Virus record (IMG/VR): IMGVR_UViG_3300042305_001093
Coordinates: 1 to 20,169 of that record
Direction: 5' to 3' (one strand)
From: a virus
Length of the DNA: 20,169 bases
Shown: positions 2,766 to 19,007 of the stretch, one piece after another
Position numbering within the stretch: the stretch's first letter is position 1
Layout of the letters: each line of letters opens with the position of its first letter
Position numbers and translations under genes: made by a program
The notes under the pieces: model-generated
What the model saw: only the letters and a program-made list of their open reading frames with translations
Database searches by the model: none
What the model was told of the DNA's origin: nothing

Positions 2766-2909
2766 TTAAACTTTGACGTATTCGTCTTTGTGGCATCCGC
2801 AGTCTGGACAGAGCCAAAACTGAGGAAGGTCTTTCCACTTTTTACCTTCTTTTTCTTCATCGTACTCATGACCACAAACATCACACACATATACTTCATA
2901 TGATTCCAT
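2766..2909 (-). CDS. Rubredoxin-like small iron protein
   Basis: A 47-residue protein. It contains the two rubredoxin knuckles, YVCDVCGHEYD and LCPDCGCHKDEY, giving the CxxCG...CPxCG ligand set for one tetra-cysteinyl iron. The aromatic core residues (Tyr, Trp in KWKDLPQFW) are also at the usual places. Length matches classical rubredoxins of about 50 residues. The ATG at 2909 is set by AGGAG 6-7 nt upstream. Rubredoxins pass single electrons in the cytoplasm; the partner here cannot be read. It lies between the hairpin-rich segment at 2932-3032 and hsp20, in a small group of stress and redox genes. Confidence 0.92.
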   Translation of the reverse strand: MESYEVYVCDVCGHEYDEEKEGKKWKDLPQFWLCPDCGCHKDEYVKV

Positions 2910-3012: not shown

Positions 3013-3032
3013 TATGTATTTATACTAGACCA
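3005..3032. repeat. Perfect 11-bp inverted repeat around a late-promoter-like box
   Basis: TGGTCTAGTAT (3005-3015) is exactly repeated in inverted orientation as ATACTAGACCA (3022-3032), with a 6-nt spacer. The minus-strand TATAAATA overlaps the spacer and the inner part of one arm. It could be a protein-binding operator over the promoter or an RNA hairpin. No T-run follows it, so it is not a simple terminator. Confidence 0.7.
3017..3024 (-). promoter_or_regulatory. T4-type late promoter TATAAATA
   Basis: The minus strand reads TATAAATA, an exact match to the T4 late-promoter minus-10 element recognised by the gp55/gp33/gp45 late system. It is in an intergenic position, about 110 nt upstream of the rubredoxin start and in the right orientation. 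A start near 3010 would give a transcript running into the hairpins and terminator at 2932-3007. Use depends on this phage keeping T4-style late transcription, which the gp45 and DsbA-like genes suggest. Confidence 0.55.
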
Positions 3033-3368: not shown

Positions 3369-3806
3369 TTAACGTTTCATTGTTGCCGAAAACATCCAAA
3401 TGTGCTTCGATAGAGCATCGATCCGACCGGCGATAAAGTCGCTCAGGCCATAAGTTTTGCTCTGCTCAGAGAGTTCAAAGAGAGGAATTAGTTGTGCTTT
3501 GCAGGTATTGAGGTCTTGAAGAGTTCTAGAAATCATCGTCATTGCATCGGCTACCATTATTTCGTCGGCAATCTGAGACAACTCGGTGAATCTGGAAAAA
3601 CTTCCTGGTGTGTATGCACCCAAGGCACGAATTTCTTCGGCAAAAACGTCAACACTATCTGAAATTTCTTGATAAAGTTCACCGAAAAGCTTGTGATACT
3701 GCACAAAGTCTGGACCTTCTACGTTCCAATGATAGTTTTGTGCTTTCAATTGTAGTGCGTATGCATTTGCTAGGGCAATTTTCATACCTTGAATAAGTTC
3801 TTCCAT
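3369..3806 (-). CDS. dps: Dps-like ferritin (DNA protection during starvation)
   Basis: A 145-residue Dps-family mini-ferritin; family members form dodecamers that oxidise and store iron with peroxide. The signature QNYHWNVEGPDFVQYHKLF is followed by EISDSVDVFAEEIRALG. Ferroxidase ligands H26, H38, D53 and E57 have the same spacing as the E. coli Dps site (H51, H63, D78, E82). There is no long Lys-rich N-terminal tail, so DNA binding is uncertain. The ATG is preceded by AAAGGA, and a CATAAATA late-promoter-like octamer lies at 3837-3844. A ferritin in a lytic phage is uncommon. With rubredoxin and Hsp20 nearby it suggests management of iron or oxidative stress during late infection. Confidence 0.95.
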   Translation of the reverse strand: MEELIQGMKIALANAYALQLKAQNYHWNVEGPDFVQYHKLFGELYQEISDSVDVFAEEIRALGAYTPGSFSRFTELSQIADEIMVADAMTMISRTLQDLNTCKAQLIPLFELSEQSKTYGLSDFIAGRIDALSKHIWMFSATMKR

Positions 3807-3836
3807 TATGTTTCCTTTAAAGTTTCGAGTATAACT

Positions 3837-3844
3837 TATTTATG
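3837..3844 (-). promoter_or_regulatory. Possible late promoter before dps
   Basis: The minus strand reads CATAAATA, seven of eight bases of the T4 late box. It lies in the 47-nt gap between the last LamG gene and dps, about 30 nt before the dps start. It would allow late expression of dps independent of the long adhesin transcript. Confidence 0.35.
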
Positions 3845-3853
3845 ATCGAATGT

Positions 3854-5032
3854 CTATAGTCCGTATCGACTTCTAGAAGAAATATAGTTTTGATAAATTT
3901 CGGATGCGGTCAATGCCCTATTATAAATTCGAACGTCTGATAATCGACCTGGAAACGCACTATCGCCTGAAGTATTTTGTGCACCAATCGCAATATCCAT
4001 ATTTCCAGAAGATGTTATTGATTTCCCCGCATCATTAGCAGAAGCGTTTAATACTCCGTTGAAATAAGTTTTCAGTCCAACATTATCATAAACTCCTGTG
4101 ATATGATGCCATACATTAGTGGATAAAGTTTGACCACCATCTATTGCGTAAACCCCAGACACACCACCATCATATTGCCAAAATATTCTACTGCTAGGAT
4201 TAATTAGTAAACATATTCCATTTTCTACATTCACTTTATTAGATATAATACCCGCCCAATAATTCGGCGCGGAAGTTCTATAAACCCAAGCTGAAAAAGT
4301 ACAAGAATTTCCGATCAAAAAGTTCATTCCATTTGTGATGTATCCAAAATCATTTGTTCCGTCAAGAACTAATGCTCCACTATTGTTTGAATTATATGAT
4401 AAACCATTTGTTAAAATTAAATGATTATTTCTTCCACTTAAATCCAACATTGAGGGAAAAGTTCCTCTTTCCATTTTCAAGTTTGTATAGTATCGATATC
4501 CTGTGTATGCACTACCACCATATCCAACGAACCAAGCAAAATCATTATTGTAATCACTCGGTGTGGTGATTAGATCATAACAATACTTCCAAGTAATGCC
4601 GTTCACAACAACCGTTTTTAAAACTGTTCCTATACCAATTCCAAGTGCAACGTGTGCGCCAGAACTACTATGTGCCCTACAGTGAAACATTCTGCTTCCG
4701 TCTGCGCAACTATAGTCACTAGATTCTGCATACCAACCACTTAAACAGTATGCTGTACTTGCAACTAATTGTGATGTAAGGTTGATTTGATATTCGGTAT
4801 AAGCAACAGTGCCTGTCTGTCTTAGTACAAACGCACTGTCTCCAGGATTAGGAAACGCAATTACTTCATTCGTTGGATTACTACCACTCTCGTAAGGCAT
4901 ACCAGAGCCATCACCAAACGCACTATTGGTATAGAAGTTTGATGAAAAGACTGTTTGGTTTTTGATTGTTCCTGCATCCATGCAGAAAACTAAACCATTA
5001 GCGACTCCGTTTGGTCCTGATGAAGAACTCAT
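3854..5032 (-). CDS. Two-domain LamG-type adhesin/tail protein (last of the array)
   Basis: A 392-residue protein whose C-terminal half is a LamG/concanavalin-like jelly roll: LDLSGRNNHLILTNG, LVLDGTNDFGYI, FSAWVYRT, HHITGVYDN and DVRIYNRALTASEIYQNYIS. The N-terminal half has an additional beta-sandwich (TEYQINLTSQLVASTAYCLS, then NLKMERGTFPS) resembling carbohydrate-binding domains of the CBM_4_9 kind. It ends SRSRYGL. I start at the ATG at 5032 (MSSSSGPNG); it overlaps the preceding stop as ATGA, whereas the longer frame begins inside the upstream gene. There is no signal peptide, as expected for a virion protein. The exact role (fibre tip, baseplate or capsid decoration) is not visible. 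Confidence 0.85.
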   Translation of the reverse strand: MSSSSGPNGVANGLVFCMDAGTIKNQTVFSSNFYTNSAFGDGSGMPYESGSNPTNEVIAFPNPGDSAFVLRQTGTVAYTEYQINLTSQLVASTAYCLSGWYAESSDYSCADGSRMFHCRAHSSSGAHVALGIGIGTVLKTVVVNGITWKYCYDLITTPSDYNNDFAWFVGYGGSAYTGYRYYTNLKMERGTFPSMLDLSGRNNHLILTNGLSYNSNNSGALVLDGTNDFGYITNGMNFLIGNSCTFSAWVYRTSAPNYWAGIISNKVNVENGICLLINPSSRIFWQYDGGVSGVYAIDGGQTLSTNVWHHITGVYDNVGLKTYFNGVLNASANDAGKSITSSGNMDIAIGAQNTSGDSAFPGRLSDVRIYNRALTASEIYQNYISSRSRYGL

Positions 5033-5766
5033 AGTCCGTATCTTCCTTTCCAAGAAATCCAATTCGACGATACTTCAGTTTGAGTAAATGGAAAATTGTA
5101 GACTTTTATTGTTGAGCGTCTACCAAAAAATTTCCATCCGTATAGTGTTCCGAACAAGCATCCGCCACCATCATAAACACTAGTTCCTGAAGTATTATTT
5201 GTATTTCCTGTTCCTATTAAATTTCCATTTATATAAAACGAAAAAGTGTTTGCTGATCTATTCCAAACCATTGTTCTAAGTCGCCATGTGTTAAATGTAT
5301 TATATGGGCTAGGGACAGTAAAGATAATTTCGTCTTCATACGATCCACCAGAACTGCTTGACATGCCCATTTTAAAAGAGCCTACACCTATACCATGTTG
5401 CCAATCAAATCCTGTCGCTCCACCACCATAGGCACTATCACTTACAACAGACCCGCCGTCGGCCTCTGGATAATTCGTTGAATATGTATATACAGATTCC
5501 TCTATTGTCCATCCTCCAGTAGTTGTACTGAAAGTATTATTAATAGTTGTAGAATTTGATGTTGAGATATAAAAAAAATCAGAAGTATTAGAAGAATTTT
5601 GAAGCCATGTATTCGACTTCTCTCCCAGATTAATTGTTCCATGATTGCCATTTCCGCTCAGATCATACCATGTGGTTCCACTTCCTGGATAGCTTTTAAC
5701 ATTAGCGGCATCATACGACAAAATCAGTCCCGACAACACCGTTTTTGCTCCATGAAACAAGCTCAT
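5029..5766 (-). CDS. Single-domain LamG-type adhesin/tail protein
   Basis: A 245-residue paralogue. The N-terminal module GLILSYDAANVKSYPGSGTT continues WYDLSGNGNHGTI. A LamG-like fold follows (GGWTIEESVYTY, TWRLRTMVWNR, FSFYINGNLIG, TIKVYNFPFTQTEVSSN) and it ends WKGRYGL. I start at the ATG at 5766 (MSLFHGAK), which forms an ATGA overlap with the upstream stop. A longer in-frame extension only copies the antisense of nothing known and enters the upstream gene, so I rejected it. The start also follows the GGAAGGTATGG purine stretch encoded by the upstream gene's RGRYG tail. Confidence 0.85.
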   Translation of the reverse strand: MSLFHGAKTVLSGLILSYDAANVKSYPGSGTTWYDLSGNGNHGTINLGEKSNTWLQNSSNTSDFFYISTSNSTTINNTFSTTTGGWTIEESVYTYSTNYPEADGGSVVSDSAYGGGATGFDWQHGIGVGSFKMGMSSSSGGSYEDEIIFTVPSPYNTFNTWRLRTMVWNRSANTFSFYINGNLIGTGNTNNTSGTSVYDGGGCLFGTLYGWKFFGRRSTIKVYNFPFTQTEVSSNWISWKGRYGL

Positions 5767-6479
5767 ATACCATACCTTCCGCGTAGGGCTTGAAAATTTT
5801 GCGCGATCTCTGCCGCGCTTAATGCTTTTTTGTATGCCTTGATTACCGATAGTTTTCCAGTATATATGCCGCAGCAAGGACTGCGCACAATTCCAGGTGC
5901 AGACGCATTCTGTGCTGTCTGTGATGCAGGTAAGCCTAGGTAATCCTGATATACTCCATCCAAGTACAATAAAACTCTTGGAGAGCCAGCCACAGAGCCT
6001 GTTCTATTGAACACTGCAACTACCTGATGCCATTTGTTGTTATCAAAAGAACTGGTATATGCAGCAGCGCCCTCTGTGTAATCAGGACCACATAGAGCAT
6101 ATATTCCATTCGTGCCAACACCAAATCTGAATCCATCACCACCGCCGGCGTTACTTATCAGTCCAACTTGACCAGAAGAAGAGTTAACATTTTTAACCCA
6201 AACTTCAAACGTGTAATCTCCTGTGCTATTGGTAATAGCACCACTAAGACTAAAACCTAGAGAAGAATCTGCCGAATAACTGCCTGATGCTGTCGCAAAG
6301 TTAAAACATCTAGTAACATCAGTTTCAAAAGGTACAGAGCCAAACATAGAAGCAGTAATACCACTCGAACTTAAATCGGTCCATGTGGTTCCGCTGCCAG
6401 GATAACTTTTTGTGTTACCTGCATCCAAACACAAGGATAAATTCTCGGTGACCGATCTAGGACTGTAAAAAATTGCCAT
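5763..6479 (-). CDS. Single-domain LamG-type adhesin/tail protein
   Basis: A 238-residue paralogue. It begins MAIFYSPRSVTENLSLCLDA and then has the shared TKSYPGSGTTWTDLSS segment. The LamG jelly roll shows YTFEVWVKN, KWHQVVAVFNR, VLLYLDGVYQ and LSVIKAYKKALSAAEIAQNF, and ends ALRGRYGI. The start is only 1 nt after the TAA of the preceding 85-residue gene, so translation is probably coupled. Around 6381-6440 its DNA is closely similar to 9303-9360 of another family member, so the genes appear to share recently exchanged or duplicated segments. Confidence 0.87.
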   Translation of the reverse strand: MAIFYSPRSVTENLSLCLDAGNTKSYPGSGTTWTDLSSSGITASMFGSVPFETDVTRCFNFATASGSYSADSSLGFSLSGAITNSTGDYTFEVWVKNVNSSSGQVGLISNAGGGDGFRFGVGTNGIYALCGPDYTEGAAAYTSSFDNNKWHQVVAVFNRTGSVAGSPRVLLYLDGVYQDYLGLPASQTAQNASAPGIVRSPCCGIYTGKLSVIKAYKKALSAAEIAQNFQALRGRYGI

Positions 6480-6480
6480 A

Positions 6481-6738
6481 TTACATCTCAGTAGGTCTCA
6501 TCGGCAGCGTCCACTCTTCATTGCTGAGAATAGCTAAGATTTCTTCGTGCGTATATGGGCCCTCTGCGCCTGTGAGTTCTAGTGTAGAAGCAGGTCTTTC
6601 ACCTTCCCACTTCACAAATGTCTTTGTGCCATCTACACTTTTTCTTACTGTGTCGGCAGATGATTCTAACACTTCATTGAAGTTTACTTTGTCTAACTCT
6701 GAGACTGAAAAGATTAAATAATTTCTATCGTTGTACAT
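6481..6738 (-). CDS. Small conserved phage protein of 85 residues (function unknown)
   Basis: Begins MYNDRNYLIFSVSELDKVNF and ends EEWTLPMRPTEM. I do not recognise a domain with a known activity; I have an impression of similar small proteins next to phage tail genes. No Cys pairs or membrane segments are seen. The ATG at 6738 is chosen because AGGAGA lies just upstream; an earlier in-frame ATG at 6762 precedes that site. It is placed between two LamG genes and could be a chaperone, adaptor or small virion component of that set. That idea rests on position alone. Confidence 0.8.
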   Translation of the reverse strand: MYNDRNYLIFSVSELDKVNFNEVLESSADTVRKSVDGTKTFVKWEGERPASTLELTGAEGPYTHEEILAILSNEEWTLPMRPTEM

Positions 6739-6751
6739 TATGTTCTCCTGA

Positions 6752-7489
6752 TTAAATAACATTATATCTATTTCTATGCGCTTTATACTGTACGTTCACC
6801 TGTGAAGCAGTATGAGCAACATCATTATAAACTTGCATTGAACCCATGTCTCCGGAATAATATCCCCACCCCCAAAACACTCCAACACTGCCCATATTTC
6901 CGCCGCCTAATACTCTAGGTGAAGATACTGTCAAAACATAATCTTGTACACCGTTGACATACATGGTCATCGTTGTTGCACTTGATCTTATAAATGCAAG
7001 ATGCTGCCACGTTCCTGTGTTAACAGACGCACCAGTGCTTGTATAGTAGTTCCACTGTCCATCGTATTGAAGATAATATAGTTTTCCACCATTTAATCCG
7101 TACCCGACGTTTACTGGTCCACCGCTCCAATGAGAGAAAAATCCCATCTGAGCAGATGATGTTGTTCGTATCCAAAAGTATACGCTGCATACTGTTGACA
7201 GTAATACTGGCGTGCTTGTATTACCAGTGACACTATCTTGCATAGAAAAATAATCGTTTGTCCCATCAAACGACATATAGCCTAGATGGTCTGATCTAAA
7301 TATTGGGCCGTTGTTCAGTGTGCTATTTACATTTCCTTGTAAATCATATGCAGTAGAAGAGCCAGAGGTGAATGATAGTGGTCGAGCAAAATCTATAGCA
7401 TATGTTAAATTGGTGGGTATTAAACCTACTAGAGAATTTTGTCTCGACTGATTCGCCCAATTTGTAGAAACTCCGTGATTTAGTCCCAT
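6752..7489 (-). CDS. Divergent LamG-type adhesin/tail protein
   Basis: A 245-residue family member with a diverged N-terminus ([20 protein letters not shown]; no SYPGSG motif). Its LamG core is clear: [49 protein letters not shown] and [20 protein letters not shown]. It ends HRNRYNVI rather than RGRYG, and the next gene has its own AGGAGA site. This fits the idea that the RGRYG tail matters where no separate ribosome site exists. Its own start follows CGGAGTATAG, which straddles the upstream gene's end, by 2 nt after the stop. Confidence 0.86.
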
Positions 7490-7491
7490 TT

Positions 7492-8670
7492 CTATACTCC
7501 GTACCTTCCACGTAATGCTTGAAAGTTTTGTATCACTTGTTGTGTGGATAACGCGAGATTATAAAATTTTACGTTACTGATTGAACCAGACCAATATGCC
7601 CCGCCGCCAGTCCAATCATAAATTGATCCGCCTATTTTTACACTGTTGCTCTTATTGACGTTTGTAGATGCATTAGTCCATGTATTAGTAGAAATTAGTA
7701 CGCCATTCGCATATAGATATAATTCATTAGCGGTATGTGACCAAACAACTGTAATATTTTTCCATACGTTAGCTTGAAAAACAGAAGACACTTCTGGAGT
7801 AGGCCCGTTGCCATGACCTCCTCCAGTATCCCAATACACAAAGCCTAAATTACTGCCGTTTTGTCTTACTTGCCATTCCCAATCTAACCCTTTGCCTATT
7901 ATGCCTCTAGTTTGGGAAACAGTTGATGGCTTACACCAAAAATCTATAGACGCACTATTTGTATTGTTCCAACTTAAATCTAAACCTGTATCTATGTAAT
8001 CGTCTGTAGCATCAAAACTAAAAGTGCCATCCGAAGCATACGATAAATTTTGTGCGGTGATAGTATTATTATTTGTTAAATCTAAAATAGCCTGTGTGTT
8101 TGATCTTGTACCATCTACAAACGGTGAATAAATTGAACCTGCTTCCATTTGAGGCTCTTTCAATTCAAAGATATGATTGTACGTCGTGTAATCATCACCG
8201 TCCTGCATAAACCATAAAACTCTTGTTGTATTAGCAGGCGTTGTTAAAGTAATAAAAGCTGTTTGCCAATCCTCTTTATCAGTAATACCTAATTGTGCTG
8301 TAGTAGCAAATGACATCGTGCTTATGTAGCTGACGCCATTATAAGCTTGAATTTGAAAACGTAAGGTGGGCGCGCCTGCTATTTTTCTATATTTTACAGA
8401 AAATGTATATGTTGTACTTGCTGATACACCTTCAATATATGTATTTTGACGAGTATTTTGATTTATATCAGAGATTGTACAATAATAAGTGCTATTAATA
8501 GTACGTGTTCCAATATTACCTTGACCTGAACCATCAACTGACCATGCTGCCCACGAAGGATTTACTAAATTTGTGGTAGGTTTACCTTTCCAAGACTTCT
8601 CGGTGTTATTCGCATCATAACAGAAAACCAGACCACTAGTAGAAATTTCTGGACCTGAGAATGCACTCAT
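7492..8670 (-). CDS. Two-domain CBM-like plus LamG adhesin/tail protein
   Basis: A 392-residue protein. Residues about 30-185 form a carbohydrate-binding-like beta-sandwich ([62 protein letters not shown]). The ending QMEAGSxxSPF is typical of CBM_4_9-like modules. A LamG domain follows ([62 protein letters not shown]) and then ALRGRYGV. The N-terminal module is [19 protein letters not shown]. The start overlaps the upstream stop as ATGA. Probable role: glycan recognition by a virion structure, inferred from the folds. Confidence 0.87.
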
Positions 8671-9401
8671 ATGCTATATCTTCCACGATGAGCTTGAAAA
8701 TTTTGTTGTATATCGGTGTTCGAAAATTTAAATCCATATATTTTTACCACACTAATTCTTCCACTGTACCATCCAGATGATCCTCCTCGACTACCGAGAT
8801 AAAGTGTATAGTTACCAAAGCTTCCTGAGCTAGTCGAAGTGCTTGTAGGATATCCAGGACCAGTAACAAAATTTACTAAATTACCATCGCAGTATGTCAG
8901 TCTTCCTGTGCTATCGGATACTTTAGAAAAAATATTAACATGTGTATTCCAAACAAATCCAGCCGTTTGTATTGCTGGCGGAGAATGTAAATAATTTCTT
9001 ACTGCAACACCATTATGATTAGTGTGATGCATGCCTGAAGAGAAACTATTTCCGTCGCTATTAACAGATAACCCCCAAGCACCGCTGTTTGAATTCCAAT
9101 CCGCACTATGCTCAATCAGCATCGATGATGGGCCTCCAGCTAACCTAAACCATATTTCGCATACTATGTAATCATATGAACTAAGATTTATAGTATTTGT
9201 AGAAGCAGCAAAATCATTGAAGCCATCGAATACAATTGCACCGTCGAGAAATCCGATACCATTGTAAAGTGTAAAATGATTACCGTTTCCACTTATATCA
9301 AACCAAGTGCTTCCACTGCCAGGGTAACTTTTTGTGTTGGCTGCATCTAAACACAGCACCAATGCGTTTGTAACGATTCTAGGACTATGATTAAGTGCCA
9401 T
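8667..9401 (-). CDS. Single-domain LamG-type adhesin/tail protein
   Basis: A 244-residue paralogue. It has MALNHSPRIVTNALVLCLDA, then TKSYPGSGSTWFDISGNGNH and a LamG core (AIVFDGFNDFAAS, VCEIWFRLAGG, VNIFSKVSDSTGRLTYCDGN, ISVVKIYGFKFSNTDIQQNF), ending AHRGRYSI. The ATG starts 2 nt after the stop of the preceding family member, with the purine stretch GGAAGATACGG of that gene's tail as the only visible ribosome site. Its stop overlaps the next ATG. Confidence 0.87.
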   Translation of the reverse strand: MALNHSPRIVTNALVLCLDAANTKSYPGSGSTWFDISGNGNHFTLYNGIGFLDGAIVFDGFNDFAASTNTINLSSYDYIVCEIWFRLAGGPSSMLIEHSADWNSNSGAWGLSVNSDGNSFSSGMHHTNHNGVAVRNYLHSPPAIQTAGFVWNTHVNIFSKVSDSTGRLTYCDGNLVNFVTGPGYPTSTSTSSGSFGNYTLYLGSRGGSSGWYSGRISVVKIYGFKFSNTDIQQNFQAHRGRYSI

Positions 9402-9403
9402 TT

Positions 9404-10567
9404 TTATAATCCGTATCTTCCGCGAAGAGCTTGATAATTTTGTCGAATTTCTGCCGCTGACAAAGGACGATTGTATAATCTAACAGAAGAAATATTTGAA
9501 CTACTAGGATATCCGCCGGCATTATAGTCGCCTATGTATGTTGTTGCAGTATATGTTGTTGGCTGATTAGTCATTACCTGCGTAGCCTCTTGAGAGCCAT
9601 TGACATAAATCGTCATATTTGCCCCATCGAAAGTACCAACAACATGATACCAAACACCAGTTGTAAATACTGTAGTCGAATATATCACACTATATGATGA
9701 TGCCGTTGTTCCTATAACTTCCCACCTCATTTGATTAGTGCTTCCTGGCATCCAAAAATTTACATAAGACGATGAATTAAATCCGAAAAAGCCTTGATTT
9801 CGATTTATGGCATTCAGTTTTATCCAGGACTCTAACGTTCCGCCTGATGAGAAATTAAATTCTCTTGAAGTAATAACGATTCTATCGTCGATTCCATCAA
9901 ATAAGATACTTCCTCTGTTAGAAGAATTATATGACGGACCGTTGGTTAATGTTCCATCATTTCCGCGAAGGGTTAAATCATTCCATGCGTTTCCGTTTTG
10001 ATTATAAAAAGGACTAAAGTTCGTAGCGGCACTTCCTCTTTCTAGTTGCAGTCCGTCAACCCACATTGTTACACCTGTATTATAATTATCTATGCGCACC
10101 TGAACAAATGCAGTAGTTCCTTGCGTCATCGTATACGACCCCGACACTCTGGTCCAGCCAGTAGTTACGCTATAAAATGTTTGTCCAAGTGCTGTGTAAT
10201 TGCCAGAAGAGTTTGCTTCAAATATCATCAAAGAAGCAGTGTGTGACGTTGCGCCTTTTACCCAAAAACTAAATGTCCAAGTTTGTCCTATCGCTGCCGG
10301 AGCAAGATTCCATGTAGATGAATTATAAGTGCCTGTATACGCACTAGAACCACTAGTAACTATTTTTAGTGGAACACCTCCGACAGGACTATCGGTAACA
10401 GAACTATCTCTAGATAGAGTCATTTGATACCCACCACCAGGACCGAACCAAGTATGTGAATCCAAAGGTTGAGGAAATACATTCAGACTGTAGCTTTTCA
10501 TATTAGCGGAATCAAGGGAAAAAATTACTCCGCTGGTTGAAACTCTAGGACTGTAACTTATACCCAT
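9404..10567 (-). CDS. Two-domain CBM-like plus LamG adhesin/tail protein
   Basis: A 387-residue protein, first LamG gene of the array in transcription order. N-terminal motif: SPRVSTSGVIFSLDSANMKSY. Residues about 60-190 form a CBM_4_9-like sandwich (WTFSFWVKGATSHTASLMIF, VSGSYTMTQGTTAFVQVRID, MWVDGLQLERGSAATNFSPF). The LamG domain follows (ILFDGIDDRIVI, LESWIKLNAINRN, WYHVVGTFDGANMTIYVNGS, ISSVRLYNRPLSAAEIRQNY) and then ALRGRYGL. The ATG overlaps the upstream stop as TGATG and GGAG lies upstream. It is the most complete representative of the long architecture. Confidence 0.88.
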   Translation of the reverse strand: MGISYSPRVSTSGVIFSLDSANMKSYSLNVFPQPLDSHTWFGPGGGYQMTLSRDSSVTDSPVGGVPLKIVTSGSSAYTGTYNSSTWNLAPAAIGQTWTFSFWVKGATSHTASLMIFEANSSGNYTALGQTFYSVTTGWTRVSGSYTMTQGTTAFVQVRIDNYNTGVTMWVDGLQLERGSAATNFSPFYNQNGNAWNDLTLRGNDGTLTNGPSYNSSNRGSILFDGIDDRIVITSREFNFSSGGTLESWIKLNAINRNQGFFGFNSSSYVNFWMPGSTNQMRWEVIGTTASSYSVIYSTTVFTTGVWYHVVGTFDGANMTIYVNGSQEATQVMTNQPTTYTATTYIGDYNAGGYPSSSNISSVRLYNRPLSAAEIRQNYQALRGRYGL

Positions 10568-10824
10568 CAGAAACTCTCTCCACAGATATGATTTTCCGTG
10601 ATTGCTCTGATGGCACGAACGTATTCAAATGATGTCAAATTATTCTGTTGAAGAACCATGTCTACTGAATTCCAAAATCCATCGATGACTTCCTGTGAGC
10701 ATTCGCAACTACATATAGCGCGATATGGCACATATCCAAATGGTGCATTGTTGAAATCTATTTCACTTTCAACATCGCCTTGTATCATGCCTTGCGTCGT
10801 TAATATTTGAAAAGTGTATTTCAT
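10567..10824 (-). CDS. Small protein of 85 residues (function unknown)
   Basis: Begins MKYTFQILTTQGMIQGDVES and contains the Cys-rich CSCECSQEVIDGF and a terminal HICGESF. I do not recognise a family. The four Cys are too closely spaced for a classical zinc knuckle. It is coupled at both ends: its ATG overlaps the stop of the fibrinogen-like gene as TAATG, and its stop overlaps the LamG start as TGATG. Like the 85-residue gene at 6481-6738, it immediately precedes a LamG gene, so it may act as an adaptor or assembly chaperone; this is inferred from context only. Confidence 0.72.
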   Translation of the reverse strand: MKYTFQILTTQGMIQGDVESEIDFNNAPFGYVPYRAICSCECSQEVIDGFWNSVDMVLQQNNLTSFEYVRAIRAITENHICGESF

Positions 10825-11579
10825 TATCTTACCATTATCATGTATTGATTGGTTCCGCCATGTGTTAATCCATTGGAGACATAGGTATTGTTTTCAAAGT
10901 TTCCGCTACCGTCAGTAGTTGATCCTCCGCACCATGGACCAGCGTAATAGAAATTTGCGCCACAGTATGTAGTGACCATAGAAGTAGGCACACCACCATA
11001 CCCTGCAAATCCGCAACAATCTCGCATGTAGTAAATATTGCTACTAGTTCCTGTTACAGGATAACCTATTGCGCCTTGCATACCAGGAAATGAATCCGTT
11101 CCGTAGACTGCGGTGTTACTTTTTAGTGTTGATGTTGACGCACCTTGTTGAGTATCGCTAGTCAAAAAAGTAGTGTAGCTTATATCAAACCTTTTGTATA
11201 TGAAAGGTCCCCAAGCATTATTATTTATGTTCGCTCTGTTGCCAAATATAAACTCTGTAAATGTTCTACTGGTTGCATGCCAATATGTCCACCATCCGGC
11301 TTGATATGCTTGCGTGAAATCTTTTACTGAGCCTATTGGACCACCTTGCCAGCCCCAATTCTGCCCATTGTAATTCACTACCGACGGATGGCTTCTTGCT
11401 ATCATCATCCAGCCACCGCCGTCTGTAGTCATGTCGCACCAGACTAGTTGTCCAGAATTATTTCTTCCATTTGGCCATAGCATGTAATAATTATCTTTTT
11501 GATAAAGATAAGGATATTTTTCAAGTAATTCTTTAGCGGTGGATGCCTTAGAGGTGTCTTGATTATAAACTAGTGCCAT
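10824..11579 (-). CDS. Fibrinogen-like (GGGW) domain virion adhesin
   Basis: A 251-residue protein with a fibrinogen-related domain core: the signature VWCDMTTDGGGWMMIARS occupies residues 46-63. This matches the YCDMxTDGGGWT motif of fibrinogen C-terminal domains and of bacterial and phage GGGW proteins. The rest is rich in Gly, Tyr, Trp and Asn, with Cys pairs (RDCCGF, TYCGAN, PWCGGS) and ends GGTNQYMIMVR. In animals such domains bind glycans and acetylated sugars; here a receptor-binding or virion-surface role is probable. It opens the adhesin cassette 6 nt after regA; the only upstream ribosome site is AAGGGA, at a rather long distance of about 11 nt. Confidence 0.85.
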   Translation of the reverse strand: MALVYNQDTSKASTAKELLEKYPYLYQKDNYYMLWPNGRNNSGQLVWCDMTTDGGGWMMIARSHPSVVNYNGQNWGWQGGPIGSVKDFTQAYQAGWWTYWHATSRTFTEFIFGNRANINNNAWGPFIYKRFDISYTTFLTSDTQQGASTSTLKSNTAVYGTDSFPGMQGAIGYPVTGTSSNIYYMRDCCGFAGYGGVPTSMVTTYCGANFYYAGPWCGGSTTDGSGNFENNTYVSNGLTHGGTNQYMIMVR

Positions 11580-11585
11580 AGAAAT

Positions 11586-11993
11586 TTAGTCCCTTCTTTT
11601 TTTATTTCCTATGTTGTACTTAGCAACTAGTTCCCATTCATTACGTTCAGAATATGCAATGATCTTAATCTGAGAAAGTGGAGCAATTAAGTCCCGTGTG
11701 ACACTCTTGTCAACTAGAGACACAAGCCCCCATTCTTCTAATAGGTTTACGATAGTATTTCTTCGAGCAACATCGTTGTCATCGAAGTCTGTTGGTTTGC
11801 CATCAAGTCCGAAAAGTTCTTTGAAGTGTACAATGTAATATTTGCCACGTTTATGTAGAATATGACAAGATTGATAAAGCTTCTTTTCTTTTCTCGATGC
11901 AACCCCGATTCTTGTTAAAGTTTCTCTGACCTTTAAAAAATCGTCTTCCGAAGGCAACAAAACTTCAACTAATGTTTCCACGCTTATGGTCAT
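11586..11993 (-). CDS. regA: Translational repressor RegA
   Basis: A 135-residue homologue of T4 RegA (122 residues), which binds start regions of early mRNAs and represses their translation, including its own. The diagnostic core DDFLKVRETLTRIGVASRKE is followed by KKLYQSCHILHKRGKYYIVHFKELFGLDG, near-identical in pattern to T4. The NTIVNLLEEWGLV helix and the terminal EWELVAKYNIGN also match. The C-terminus carries an extra basic KKRRD. AAGGAG lies 7 nt before the ATG, which sits 29 nt inside the end of gene 62, so it may be translated partly by coupling. Gene order 44-62-regA is as in T4, but gp43 is displaced by about 9.7 kb. Confidence 0.97.
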   Translation of the reverse strand: MTISVETLVEVLLPSEDDFLKVRETLTRIGVASRKEKKLYQSCHILHKRGKYYIVHFKELFGLDGKPTDFDDNDVARRNTIVNLLEEWGLVSLVDKSVTRDLIAPLSQIKIIAYSERNEWELVAKYNIGNKKRRD

Positions 11994-14712: not shown

Positions 14713-15552
14713 TCAACGCTTTGGAGAATCTTTGCTGGCAGTGGGCGATGCGCCAATGGTTGCAATTGCGGCTAGACTACCACCGAAGATATACGTGCCT
14801 GCATGTTTAAGCTTGACCCAAGGAAGCATCCAAACTTTAGAGCCAGACTTTCGAGCATATTGGCAGAACATATAGTCTTCTGACAAATAACGTTTTGAGT
14901 CTGGATCAATCACGCAGTCAAAGTATGCCATGATCTCTCGGCTACCATCAAATGCTTTAGTGCGAACGTGGTCTGGCTTATAGAGCCGTTCTGGATAGTC
15001 TCGGTCCATACGTTCGAATGCTTCACGTTTGATTAGCATGAAGCCAGTGCCACCCTCTTTTACTTCAACGGGTTCATCAACACGAAACTTTTGAATGCCA
15101 TCAACGGGATTGAAAACATAGTCGCCAACAAACTCCTCAAGCAAAAGAGGATTTTTATCAGCATAGCCTTTGTCTACAGCAAGCTTGATTTTTTCCCATG
15201 AGATTGCTTTCTTTGGATACGGACCGCAGATGATGTCCATGTTGTCATTGTTGATAGCATAGTGATGAAGAACCAAAACATCTTGGGCTTCAAAGTGGAT
15301 ATCGCTATCGATGAAAAGAAGGTGGTCATAATCACTTCGGAGAAATTCATCAGCAAGGTAGTTCCTCGCGCGTGTGATCAATGATTCATTAAACATAAAG
15401 AAAAGCTTGGCCTCAATACCATACTTGGTACACATAGTCATGAGGTCTGCAATTGCTTTAGTGTAAGAGCCGTGACACATACCACCGTACATAGGTGTGG
15501 CAATAAAAAGCTTCTTGGTTCTCAGTTGTTCTAGGTTCAATTCAATTTCCAT
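14713..15552 (-). CDS. Glycosyltransferase-like protein (GT-A fold)
   Basis: A 279-residue protein with nucleotide-sugar transferase features. The N-terminal strand KKLFIATPMYGGMCHGSY is followed by FNESLITRARNYLADEFL, and the metal-binding motif is LLFIDSDIHF (DSD, residues 82-84). GGTGFMLIKREAF (167-179) and YLSEDYMFCQYAR (222-234) give the acceptor-side Gly-rich loop and the ED catalytic-base pair. The pattern resembles phage proteins annotated family-2 or Anp1-type glycosyltransferases. The substrate (phage DNA base, virion protein or host glycan) cannot be seen. I start at the ATG at 15552, with TGGAG 6 nt upstream. A sigma70-like promoter and the preceding terminator make this the first gene of a new transcript. 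Confidence 0.82.
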   Translation of the reverse strand: MEIELNLEQLRTKKLFIATPMYGGMCHGSYTKAIADLMTMCTKYGIEAKLFFMFNESLITRARNYLADEFLRSDYDHLLFIDSDIHFEAQDVLVLHHYAINNDNMDIICGPYPKKAISWEKIKLAVDKGYADKNPLLLEEFVGDYVFNPVDGIQKFRVDEPVEVKEGGTGFMLIKREAFERMDRDYPERLYKPDHVRTKAFDGSREIMAYFDCVIDPDSKRYLSEDYMFCQYARKSGSKVWMLPWVKLKHAGTYIFGGSLAAIATIGASPTASKDSPKR

Positions 15553-15579
15553 AGTCACTCCATAAAAAAATACACTCTG

Positions 15580-15637: not shown

Positions 15638-16810
15638 TTAAGCGGCTTGCACTGCCTCTACTGGCGCAGGCTCAACCGCAGCCGGCTGGGCATCATTGTC
15701 AATCTTGGTGTAGAGGTCCAAGAAGGAAGTTTTTGTTTCGTTATCGAAGCGGTTGATACAGTATTGAATCGCATCAACTTTGTTTCCGAAGATTGCGAAA
15801 GCTTCAGCAATATGCACAAGACGGCGAGTGGAGATCAACTCATCAATCGCACCCTCTTCAAAGGTCTTGCGAATAATGTCTGCCCACTTGACAAGGTTCT
15901 CGGCAAACGCATCGTCATTCAAACCAAGACTATCGAAAACTTTTTTCATAATCTTGATTTCGACTTTAGTGTCGGGATACTCTTGCTCAACGGTGATCGG
16001 AAACCGCTCAAGGAAAGCATCATCGAGAATCGTGGCAGCCATGTAGCGACCAGTATCGTCGCCTTTGCCTTTGGTGTTCGCAGTAGCGACAACCGTGAAG
16101 CCGTTTGCCTTTTCGACAAACTCACCCGTTTTCTTGATGAGAATGCCTTTTCCTTCAAGGACGCCTTGCAAGCAAATTAGTTTGTTAGAACCGCGGTCAA
16201 TCTCATCGAGAACCAAAACAGAACCACGCTTCATGGCCTGAATGACAGGGCCATCAAACCATTTCGTTTCACCATCAATCAGGCGAAAGCCACCGATCAA
16301 ATCATCTTCATCGGTTTCGGGAGAAATATTCACTCGCAAGAATTCACGTTTGGATTGCGCACAAGCTTGCTCAACCATGAAGGTCTTGCCGTTGCCAGAG
16401 AGGCCTGAAACGAACACGGGATAGAATCGATTGCTGGCAATGATCGATTTCATCTTATCGAAGAATCCAAAGGGAACATAGAGGCTGTTCACTTTGGGAA
16501 TAATCGCACCCTCTTCAACACGACCGACTGAAGAAATTTTGGCAAGCGGCTTTGCTACCACAGGAGCAGCCACAGGCGCAGGTTGTTTGGGAAGTTCTAC
16601 CACGTTAGAAACACCAGAAAGGTTAATATTAAATTCATCGAGAGGCAGGCGGTACGTGCCGCGACCGACTCGATATTTATCAGACTCAATCCAGAAGTGC
16701 CGAGCAAAACCTTCATTGGTCATCGAAACCAACTGCTGGCGAGTTACAACGGAACCGAAACGTTTGGCGGCTTCGGTCAGAAAGGTCACTTTATCAGATT
16801 GGCTAAGCAT
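15638..16810 (-). CDS. cobS-like: CobS/MoxR-like AAA+ ATPase
   Basis: A 390-residue ATPase. Walker A is GLSGNGKT (136-143), Walker B VLVLDEID (198-205), sensor 1 VATANT, arginine-finger region ILDDAFLERF (261-270) and sensor 2 near STRRLVHIAEAF. This is the CobS/MoxR branch, phage members of which are often labelled cobaltochelatase CobS. The partner gene upstream is a CobT-like VWA protein, the expected mate. An N-terminal domain of about 60 residues looks helix-turn-helix-like (SVVTRQQLVSMTNEGFAR) and is joined by a Pro/Ala-rich linker (74-90). The C-terminus is Ala/Pro-rich. The ATG at 16810 is favoured, with AAGGA upstream; an earlier TTG is in frame. No other cobalamin genes are present, so cobalamin synthesis is doubtful. 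Confidence 0.92.
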   Translation of the reverse strand: MLSQSDKVTFLTEAAKRFGSVVTRQQLVSMTNEGFARHFWIESDKYRVGRGTYRLPLDEFNINLSGVSNVVELPKQPAPVAAPVVAKPLAKISSVGRVEEGAIIPKVNSLYVPFGFFDKMKSIIASNRFYPVFVSGLSGNGKTFMVEQACAQSKREFLRVNISPETDEDDLIGGFRLIDGETKWFDGPVIQAMKRGSVLVLDEIDRGSNKLICLQGVLEGKGILIKKTGEFVEKANGFTVVATANTKGKGDDTGRYMAATILDDAFLERFPITVEQEYPDTKVEIKIMKKVFDSLGLNDDAFAENLVKWADIIRKTFEEGAIDELISTRRLVHIAEAFAIFGNKVDAIQYCINRFDNETKTSFLDLYTKIDNDAQPAAVEPAPVEAVQAA

Positions 16811-16843
16811 CACAAAGTCCTTGAAAATCAACAGTACATAGGG

Positions 16844-16872
16844 AGAATAACACGATTTCGGCGGTGTGTCAA
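16844..16872 (-). promoter_or_regulatory. Sigma70-like promoter of the MoxR-like gene
   Basis: TTGACA (16867-16872), a 17-nt spacer and TATTCT (16844-16849) on the minus strand. The TGA stop of the VWA gene (16869-16871) is part of the minus-35 hexamer. The start would fall about 30 nt before the ATG. Confidence 0.75.
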
Positions 16873-18983
16873 GAGATTTTTTCGACTACTTTCGAGAGAA
16901 GAACCCGATTGATGACCCGATTCTGGTTCATCTTGAGAAAAGCACCACGAAGACGGCGAGCATTGAACGAAGTGTTGTTTTCTCCCAACAGATCGTCCAG
17001 GTTCTCATCTTCAACTTCCAAATCCTTACCGCCAGGAATCAGGAAGTATTCATCGTAACCATAGTTTTTTACGCCATAGAACTTTTCTTCCTTGAATTTT
17101 TTGAAATTCTCTTCCATGATATCACAACCGAACAAGCCCATGGCATGATCAAAGTCGCGGCGTTTCTTTGGAAGAATATAGAAGCCGATGAGATTGCATC
17201 CAGTTCGATCCTTTAGAATGTTCAGAAGAACAGGAGTAACACCCTTCGATCCAATCATGTAACGTTTGTTCGTTTGCTTATCGAAAATATACGATGATTG
17301 ACTGATGGTCGATTCAGACAAAGAATAAAAAGAACCACGCATGCACAACGAAGAGGAGTCCTCGCCGTCGGTCAAGAAAACTACGTTTACGATTTCAGTT
17401 TTGTATTCTTTTCGGAAAGAATTCACAATACGGCTACTTGCGAAAATCGTATTGTTCAGAGGTGTGCCGCCAAGCCCCATAGCAGGGTTCAAATTCGACC
17501 GAAGCCGAGAGAACGCTAAATGGCTAACCGAAGCCAAGTGCAACAGGTCATTTGCCATGGTTCGAAATTCTGAAATTTTCATCCGACTAGAGAAAAGGTT
17601 CAGAAGATTGAAATGGCTATCCATCATCACCGAATTGGTTTCAAGGGAAGATTGAATACCATTGTCATGATGATTCCGCTCTTCAGAGTGGCGAAGATAT
17701 TCGGTAGAGAATGCATAGACCTCATACGGCACTTTGATTTTCTGACAGAAATAGATTAGTGACAATAACTGTTCGACGGTGCCGAGCAAATTATCACCCA
17801 TTGAACCAGACCAGTCCAAGAACAAAACCAATCCGTGATTCTTGCCAGCAGGAATCGAACCGAACTTACGAAAGATATCGTCATTAAACTTGTAGGTATG
17901 AAGCTTGTTAGTGTCAAGCACACCACTATCAGAAATCACCATGCGGCGAAGTTCGGCAGCCTTTTTGCGAAGTTCAAATTCTTTGACCATGTATAGAATA
18001 GAATTCTTGATTTTCTTTTCAAAGGCCATAATTTGACTTGGCGAATCCGCAACAATCTTCTTACCGATATCATTGAACACGGTACCGACAAGTTTTTTGA
18101 AGGGAACGATAAGCCGTTTCGGCTCGACACTTTGATCGGTAGCGAGATTGCCAACGCGAATAACTTTGTCAGATGACGCCATTTTCTCCAGGGATTCCTG
18201 AAGCTTTTGATCCGTTAGAGACTTGATTTCATCACCATAGGCACCAACCTCATTCGGAGGTAAGGCATAATCAGCACCATCGTTTTCCGAATACTCATCA
18301 TCAAAGTCTTCAGAATCATCGAAATCATCGAAATCAAAATCGTCACCGAAATCATCGTCGTTTTTGCCAGAGAGCCGTTCAGCCATTTGCTCGGCAAACT
18401 CTTGCATCTCTTCTTTTTTGTCTTCCATCTCTTGCTTGCAATACTCGAAAATTTCTTTGCTAACTCGAACAACATCATCGAAAGTATTGCAAGTTTCAAC
18501 TTTGTCAACGAACGATTGTTCGGTGCTATCAAAGTCTAGACTGAGCATTGAGCCAATCTTGAAATGAAGATTGATTCGATCAATCAACAGAAGACCATCA
18601 AGGTTTTTGTTCTTCACGCCGAAGAAATCCATACGCATAAAGTCTTGATAACCTTTGCTGAAGGATCGCTTGAGGCCAGGGTAACGGTCTTTGATTTGCC
18701 GTTCGATACGGGCATCTTCGACAACGTTTAGGAACGTGCCAAAGCCGCTTGGCATACCGTCTTGAACTGAGCCGTATTCAACAGGCGTAAAGATAGCATG
18801 GCCAACCTCATGACCGATAAAGAGGTCATGCATATCGTTGGTCATATCGTTAATGACTGGAAGAGTCAACGTGCGAGTTCCAACGTGAAAACTCGCGGTC
18901 GGAGTTTTTACATACTGAACATTGATGTTCTCGGTAGCCAGAAGCCTAGCGAGATTTGACTTAGAAATTTGATTGTTTTGCAT
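16869..18983 (-). CDS. cobT-like: CobT-like protein with HExxH peptidase motif and VWA domain
   Basis: A 704-residue protein. The N-terminal region has HEVGH (58-62) and NVVEDARIER (86-95), whose Glu fits the third ligand of gluzincin-type zinc peptidases. An acidic stretch follows (about 209-236, almost all Asp/Glu). The C-terminal VWA domain has a full MIDAS: DWSGS (D390, S392, S394), GGTPLN (T507) and FLTDGED (D539). The preceding segment RRMVISDSGVLDTNKLHTYKF is the usual CobT linker. I start at the ATG at 18983; the longer TTG frame overlaps the upstream gene. Pairing with the MoxR-like ATPase 58 nt downstream suggests an AAA+/VWA machine acting on an unknown target. Protease activity is plausible but unproven. 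Confidence 0.9.
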   Translation of the reverse strand: MQNNQISKSNLARLLATENINVQYVKTPTASFHVGTRTLTLPVINDMTNDMHDLFIGHEVGHAIFTPVEYGSVQDGMPSGFGTFLNVVEDARIERQIKDRYPGLKRSFSKGYQDFMRMDFFGVKNKNLDGLLLIDRINLHFKIGSMLSLDFDSTEQSFVDKVETCNTFDDVVRVSKEIFEYCKQEMEDKKEEMQEFAEQMAERLSGKNDDDFGDDFDFDDFDDSEDFDDEYSENDGADYALPPNEVGAYGDEIKSLTDQKLQESLEKMASSDKVIRVGNLATDQSVEPKRLIVPFKKLVGTVFNDIGKKIVADSPSQIMAFEKKIKNSILYMVKEFELRKKAAELRRMVISDSGVLDTNKLHTYKFNDDIFRKFGSIPAGKNHGLVLFLDWSGSMGDNLLGTVEQLLSLIYFCQKIKVPYEVYAFSTEYLRHSEERNHHDNGIQSSLETNSVMMDSHFNLLNLFSSRMKISEFRTMANDLLHLASVSHLAFSRLRSNLNPAMGLGGTPLNNTIFASSRIVNSFRKEYKTEIVNVVFLTDGEDSSSLCMRGSFYSLSESTISQSSYIFDKQTNKRYMIGSKGVTPVLLNILKDRTGCNLIGFYILPKKRRDFDHAMGLFGCDIMEENFKKFKEEKFYGVKNYGYDEYFLIPGGKDLEVEDENLDDLLGENNTSFNARRLRGAFLKMNQNRVINRVLLSKVVEKIS

Positions 18984-19007
18984 AACTTTCTCTCTCAGTA
19001 TGTATGT

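Follow-up and report, generated by a model that had tools for sequence, protein, structure and literature searches.

Sequence comparison points, with a probability that we put at about 65%, to a mobile, shuffling cassette of the adsorption apparatus at positions 3854-11579 (minus strand) of the window, a 20,169-bp metagenomic virus fragment that leaves the phage's own tail region outside it. Ten co-directional genes make up this array, which is bounded by regA and Dps: a fibrinogen-like gene (FBG), s85, seven LamG/ConA-fold genes (LG2-LG8), and s93 (Table 1). A probable receptor-binding repertoire would thus lie in the core replication operon, whereas the usual place to look for such genes in T4-like phages is beside the tail genes. 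An earlier note on this DNA had reported seven LamG-type ORFs and a fibrinogen-like ORF, which Pfam and PHROG profiles confirmed on the minus strand; the small genes s85 and s93 were absent from it.

Gene content and layout of the array

The gene order on the minus strand is large protein, MoxR-type ATPase, phrog_1574 protein, DUF3310 protein, gp45, RpbA-like regulator, gp44, gp62, regA, FBG, s85, LG2, LG3, LG4, LG5, s93, LG6, LG7, LG8, Dps, winged-helix protein, rubredoxin, Hsp20, phrog_527 protein, and gp43. PHROG matches identified a T4-like replication block in the order gp45-gp44-gp62-regA, with gp43, an ORF with DNA polymerase sequence, downstream. Neighboring array genes either share 1-4 nt or lie a few nucleotides apart, and the LG5-s93 spacing varies with the chosen start. 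In the upstream flank, the PHROG 1574 protein (14713-15553, minus strand), located between gp45 and MoxR, shows weak similarity to a glycosyltransferase family. The MoxR-type AAA ATPase (region 15638-18989, minus strand) lies beside the large protein, which is VWA/CobT-like by eye and gave no Pfam match.

Table 1 Features of the array and its borders in the window.
Feature	Position	Strand	Evidence or remark
regA, translation repressor, last core gene ahead of the array	11586..11993	-	PHROG 242, E 3e-59
FBG, fibrinogen-like, 251 aa, array gene 1	10824..11579	-	Pfam PF00147, 22.1 bits
s85, 85-aa FBG partner	10567..10824	-	directly downstream of FBG
LG2, N-motif + CBM_4_9-like insert + LamG, 387 aa	9404..10567	-	PF13385, 100 bits; PF02018, 30 bits
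LG3, LamG, 244 aa	8667..9401	-	PHROG 24074, E 2e-17; Pfam below cut-off (21.5 bits)
LG4, N-motif + insert + LamG, 392 aa	7492..8670	-	PF13385, 66.5 bits
LG5, LamG, 245 aa	6752..7489	-	PF13385, 57.7 bits
s93, 85 aa from ATG at 6738 (likely start)	6481..6738; ORF open to 6762	-	homologues adjoin LamG genes
LG6, LamG, 238 aa	5763..6479	-	PF13385, 52.6 bits
LG7, LamG-type, 245 aa from ATG overlapping LG6 stop (ATGA)	5029..5766	-	PHROG 24074, E 2.5e-12; no Pfam match
LG8, N-motif + insert + LamG, 392 aa, final array gene	3854..5032	-	PF13385, 107.9 bits
Promoter-like TAGACA-17-TATACT ahead of Dps, array 3' edge	3828..3856	-	consensus match only
Dps/ferritin	3369..3806	-	PF00210, E 5e-19

All seven LG proteins matched the phage LamG families PHROG 24074 and/or 8510, and five of them (LG2, LG4, LG5, LG6, and LG8) exceeded the curated cut-off of Laminin_G_3 (PF13385; 27.6 bits). 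LG3, LG5, LG6, and LG7 have ca. 240 aa; LG2, LG4, and LG8 are longer (ca. 390 aa) because they contain an extra domain between the N-terminal motif and the remaining LamG fold. The mean pairwise identity among the LG proteins was 38% in the first 25 residues and 43% in the last 25, compared with 27% in the stretch ahead of the C-terminus. The ending [RK][YF][GSN], typically RGRYGI, was present in 36 of 48 LamG-type proteins of 13 other FBG-bearing loci. Short DNA repeats mark the gene starts and ends in the array, and neither tandem repeats nor long near-identical repeats were found within it. When the ORFs of the window were scanned, no reverse transcriptase or template/variable repeats of a diversity-generating retroelement were recognized.

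Position of the array in the genome

The regA-gp43 gap of the window is 9,675 bp, including the 7,726 bp of the array, in agreement with the ca. 9.7 and 7.7 kb given earlier. In T4, regA adjoins gene 43. The earlier note took this arrangement as its baseline, which overstates the anomaly; the proper baseline is the ca. 2-kb interval of the lineage, the gap in 53 distinct relatives among the loci listed being 793-5,743 bp (median, 2,253 bp). Each scan covered the best 80 loci by score, and the frequencies therefore describe close relatives. Dps directly follows regA in all 12 relatives having both Dps and gp43 among the loci listed, and the regA stop overlaps the Dps start in L117 (flanks 73-78% identical to those of the window). 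Contigs of this species were the only ones among the 157 regA-bearing loci listed in which LamG genes came after regA. From the gap, which is longer than in the 53 relatives, the regA-Dps adjacency, and this species-specific placement, the array is best read as an insertion specific to this lineage, and L117 and the 12 relatives would represent the empty ancestral site. The nearest isolates by gp44 were phages of Stenotrophomonas (67% identity) and Methylophilales (61%); no isolate phage nearly identical to the window was found.

The ATG of FBG is located 6 nt after the regA stop, and this 6-nt junction contains no promoter or terminator, as the earlier note had remarked for the passage from regA into the array. 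The late-promoter core is ATAAATA, with NATAAATA in S-PM2 (PMC2984593). This core was not enriched (four found against 5.5 expected), and its single copy in the array lies inside FBG. A perfect T4 late-promoter core, TATAAATA, was observed at 3017-3024 (minus strand) between the winged-helix and rubredoxin genes; a single match may be due to chance. Both hexamers of the promoter-like site ahead of Dps are also present in L113, a contig of this species that does not carry the array. No RNA families were found. The operon position predicts that the array is expressed together with the replication genes.

FBG-s85 pair and s93

FBG showed a marginal match to Fibrinogen_C (PF00147; 22.1 bits against a cut-off of 22.0) at residues 28-76 only. 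A profile built from 14 FBG homologues matched tenascin, ficolin, and fibrinogen chains over residues ca. 13-107, and the longer FBG relatives of L020 and L021 matched PF00147 at E values of ca. 1e-7 (in L021, profile positions 6-192 of 221, E 1.5e-7). FBG and LamG are fused in one polypeptide in L020 (by Pfam) and L021 (by PHROG), which argues that the two act together. The AlphaFold2 model of FBG had a mean pLDDT of 49.8 and was confident only at residues ca. 11-60, and s85 was predicted to form a beta-beta-alpha-beta-beta structure (pLDDT 93). A fold search with s85 gave no clear match (best structural Z, 3.0), an absence that does not show a new fold. As for s85 being a gp38/Tfa-type tail-fibre chaperone, neither PHROG nor Pfam gave a match and the structural Z is that just given, so that the linkage to FBG is the sole tie.

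Homologues of FBG (56-80% identical) were found in 18 contigs by protein search, one of them from the same species, and a few more were obtained via the s85 search. In every locus with downstream sequence, FBG was directly followed by s85 or a divergent homologue. The settings comprised tail-fibre clusters (L010 and L018), the vicinity of ribonucleotide reductase genes (L011, L015, L016, and L019), and methyl- or glycosyltransferase genes (L021, L023, and L024); FBG and s85 thus appear to travel between genomic settings as a fixed pair. In a distant T4-like contig with gp44 (L356:447-5795), FBG-s85 lies two genes upstream of gp43, which gives a second case of a location near replication genes. 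Neither gene was found among 50,697 isolate phage records, so the role of FBG and s85 is judged from their neighbors. No FBG turned up in species-representative genomes of bacteria and archaea, which were queried with two peptide patterns only. The literature searched contained no description of an FBG-LamG array, and the conserved FBG-s85 module, likewise undescribed there, may mark such cassettes in unknown phages.

Homologues of s93 are common. Among the loci listed, a LamG gene was their neighbor in 75 of 78 other loci and LamG was present in all 78, and they adjoin LamG genes in the isolates S-SKS1 and immuto, too. Tail or baseplate genes accounted for four of the nine large neighbors of s93 loci. 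In L267, six LamG genes form an array together with s93 (69% identical); it comes from metagenome 3300046010, which is also the source of L114, a contig of this species without the array.

Possible function of the array

The earlier note had proposed a receptor-binding or decoration repertoire. Receptor binding is the better reading of the two, given the fibre, baseplate, or structural annotations of relatives and the tail-fibre clusters, and decoration is less likely. Homologues occur in tail or baseplate clusters in L010, L018, S-SKS1, and immuto, whereas the window's own array is in the replication block. These settings, the carbohydrate-binding folds, the FBG-LamG fusion, and the annotated structural relatives make a role in adsorption the best reading.

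In the mechanism that we propose, this phage species acquired the cassette by insertion between regA and Dps, so that the array genes would form a tightly spaced extension of the gp45-44-62-regA operon. The array would probably be translationally coupled and expressed by read-through from the clamp-loader/regA operon. The LamG proteins, with constant ends and variable middles, and the fixed FBG-s85 pair probably become part of the tail-fibre or baseplate periphery, and the LamG/FBG proteins would bind surface glycans. The constant LG ends may serve as docking surfaces and as recombination sites. Whole genes would be gained, lost, and exchanged with the arrays of other phages, so that members of one species would differ in repertoire. 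For virion proteins, however, transcription together with a middle-type operon would be unusual, and there is no evident late promoter.

We also entertain, while leaning against it, a shared pool of LamG proteins with constant docking ends that are exchanged as whole genes among unrelated phages, FBG-s85 (and s93) being fixed adapter or assembly factors. Because its parts would be assembled in trans, such an array could sit anywhere, even in a replication operon. If this is the case, the tips on each virion would be mixed or chosen.

Alternatively, the LamG proteins might cover the head or neck as a capsid or virion-surface decoration of the kind ascribed to T4 Hoc, sticking to mucus, particles, or glycans with no part in host choice. 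The label of PHROG 8510, to which six of the seven LG proteins matched, is 'head and packaging, virion structural protein', and short separate proteins that lack a fibre shaft might be subunits of a decoration. However, the neighborhoods of the homologues point to genes of the tail fibre, tail spike, or baseplate and not to capsid genes, and the Syn9 relative bears the annotation putative fibre; decoration is considered unlikely. We give still less credence to a non-virion role, in which the products would appear along with those of the middle genes and might, for instance, act on the host surface or block superinfection. The direction and spacing shared with gp45-44-62-regA, the lack of an evident late promoter, the arrays near ribonucleotide reductase genes, and the FBG-s85 of L356 near gp43 would fit such products, but the N-termini have no obvious signal peptides by eye, and the relatives known from cultured phages have structural annotations. 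Purifying selection of the array genes resembles that of a neighboring gene and does not separate a virion from a non-virion role.

Origin of the LamG genes

The closest relative of each LG gene was located in the array of another phage (38-70% identity), and the best matches within the window were 25-33%. The best matches were 46% for LG2 (L017), 58% for LG3 (L347), 48% for LG4 (L011), 42% for LG5 (L015), 51% for LG6 (L016), and 70% for LG7 (L019); that of LG8 (38%, L010) was marginal and of partial length. All these loci bear FBG-s85. A 408-aa protein of L017 matches LG2 overall and LG3 across its LamG half, a sign, in our reading, of domain shuffling. The term 'paralogue array' in the earlier note, which suggests duplication in place, is unsupported by these identities. 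Tandem amplification of one LamG gene, to which the adjacency, common direction, and common termini of the LG genes might point, is accordingly disfavored and very improbable.

Variation within the species

The array is missing in L113, L114, and L115, which come from three metagenomes and have flanks 98.7-99.2% identical to the window. Their scar consists of the FBG ATGGCA, a stop soon after, and a ca. 315-bp LamG remnant ending GGAAGATACGGACTATAG, followed by Dps. The remnant derives from a LamG gene absent in the window; array content therefore differed between strains. L116 (3' flank 98.3%) has kept LG4-LG5-s93-LG8 and lacks LG6 and LG7, at whose place a 28-codon relic runs from the LG6 N-terminus into a terminal RGRYGI. 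The scars in L113-L115 and L116 argue for loss from an array formerly present. The strains without the array show that it is dispensable in some backgrounds, although they may carry arrays elsewhere. A chimeric assembly fusing a tail-fibre region with the replication region, conceivable for a 20-kb metagenomic fragment, is vanishingly improbable, since the arrangement recurs in L111 and L112 (100% identity over 13,028 and 6,905 bp) and L116, from a different metagenome, has its 3' part (LG4-LG5-s93-LG8-Dps) at 95-98%, which rules out the assembly artefact considered in the earlier note, and since L113-L115 bear the LamG scar in the corresponding place.

Between the window and L113-L115, the 838 bp of gp62-regA that extend to the array edge show no differences, compared with ca. 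19 differences/kb in gp44 and ca. 13/kb in the gp45-gp44 stretch just upstream. This pattern, noticed post hoc, suggests recent exchange of the array-adjacent gp62-regA segment. Farther upstream, the 1.2 kb surrounding MoxR contain 46 differences between L113 and the window, compared with 13 in 3 kb beyond, hinting at another recombination tract. On the other side of the array, a 47-aa rubredoxin-like gene (2769-2909, minus strand; Pfam E 1.8e-8) between the winged-helix gene and Hsp20 is missing in L113-L115, which are ca. 140 bp shorter there.

In the one strain pair compared (window and L116), dN/dS of the array genes was 0.03-0.15, indicating purifying selection and giving no support to point hypervariation. 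The dS values in the same pair were 0.11-0.30 for LG4, LG5, and s93 and 0.03-0.10 for the flanking genes, as expected under allele exchange with more distant strains. Thus, the earlier suggestion of a repertoire under diversification holds for gain, loss, and exchange of whole genes or domains, but not for point hypervariation. Near-identical phages that have lost part or all of the array would represent a receptor-binding repertoire caught during reshuffling, and their partial and complete deletions in public data provide a natural presence/absence comparison of LamG repertoire with host range.

Comparison with known systems

The LamG/ConA virion proteins of cyanophages (S-PM2p176, S-SKS1 SWZG_00005/00007, and Syn9 ORF 101) belong, like those of the window, to the PHROG 24074/8510 families, and have fibre, baseplate-neighbor, or structural annotations. 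In S-SKS1, the LamG proteins adjoin a baseplate wedge protein, and an s93 homologue lies just downstream, as with s93 and LamG in the window; the Syn9 relative is an 18-kb 'structural protein, putative fiber'. The cyanophages have several LamG domains per long polypeptide in structural or variable regions, whereas the window has seven separate short genes in a replication block. Its LG proteins are ca. 25-45% identical to the cyanophage relatives, and it adds FBG and s85.

Flavobacterium phage vB_FspM_immuto resembles the window in having separate short LamG 'structural protein' genes and an s93 homologue; proteomic support for that label was not found in the open literature searched. Unlike in the window, with its replication-gene setting, the immuto LamG genes are located between annotated tail-fibre genes, and no FBG or s85 was found there. 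The uncultured FBG-s85-LamG arrays (L010, L011, L015-L019, and L347) share with the window FBG (66-80% identical), s85, and the LamG allele pool; their locations are tail-fibre clusters or the vicinity of ribonucleotide reductase genes, whereas the window's array lies between regA and Dps. In the hyperplastic (variable) regions of T4-like phages, accessory genes are inserted among conserved core genes, and the cyanophage hyperplastic region, located between g15 and g18, contains metabolic genes (PMC2984593). The window differs from the latter in having adhesin-type genes, and these lie between regA and gp43.
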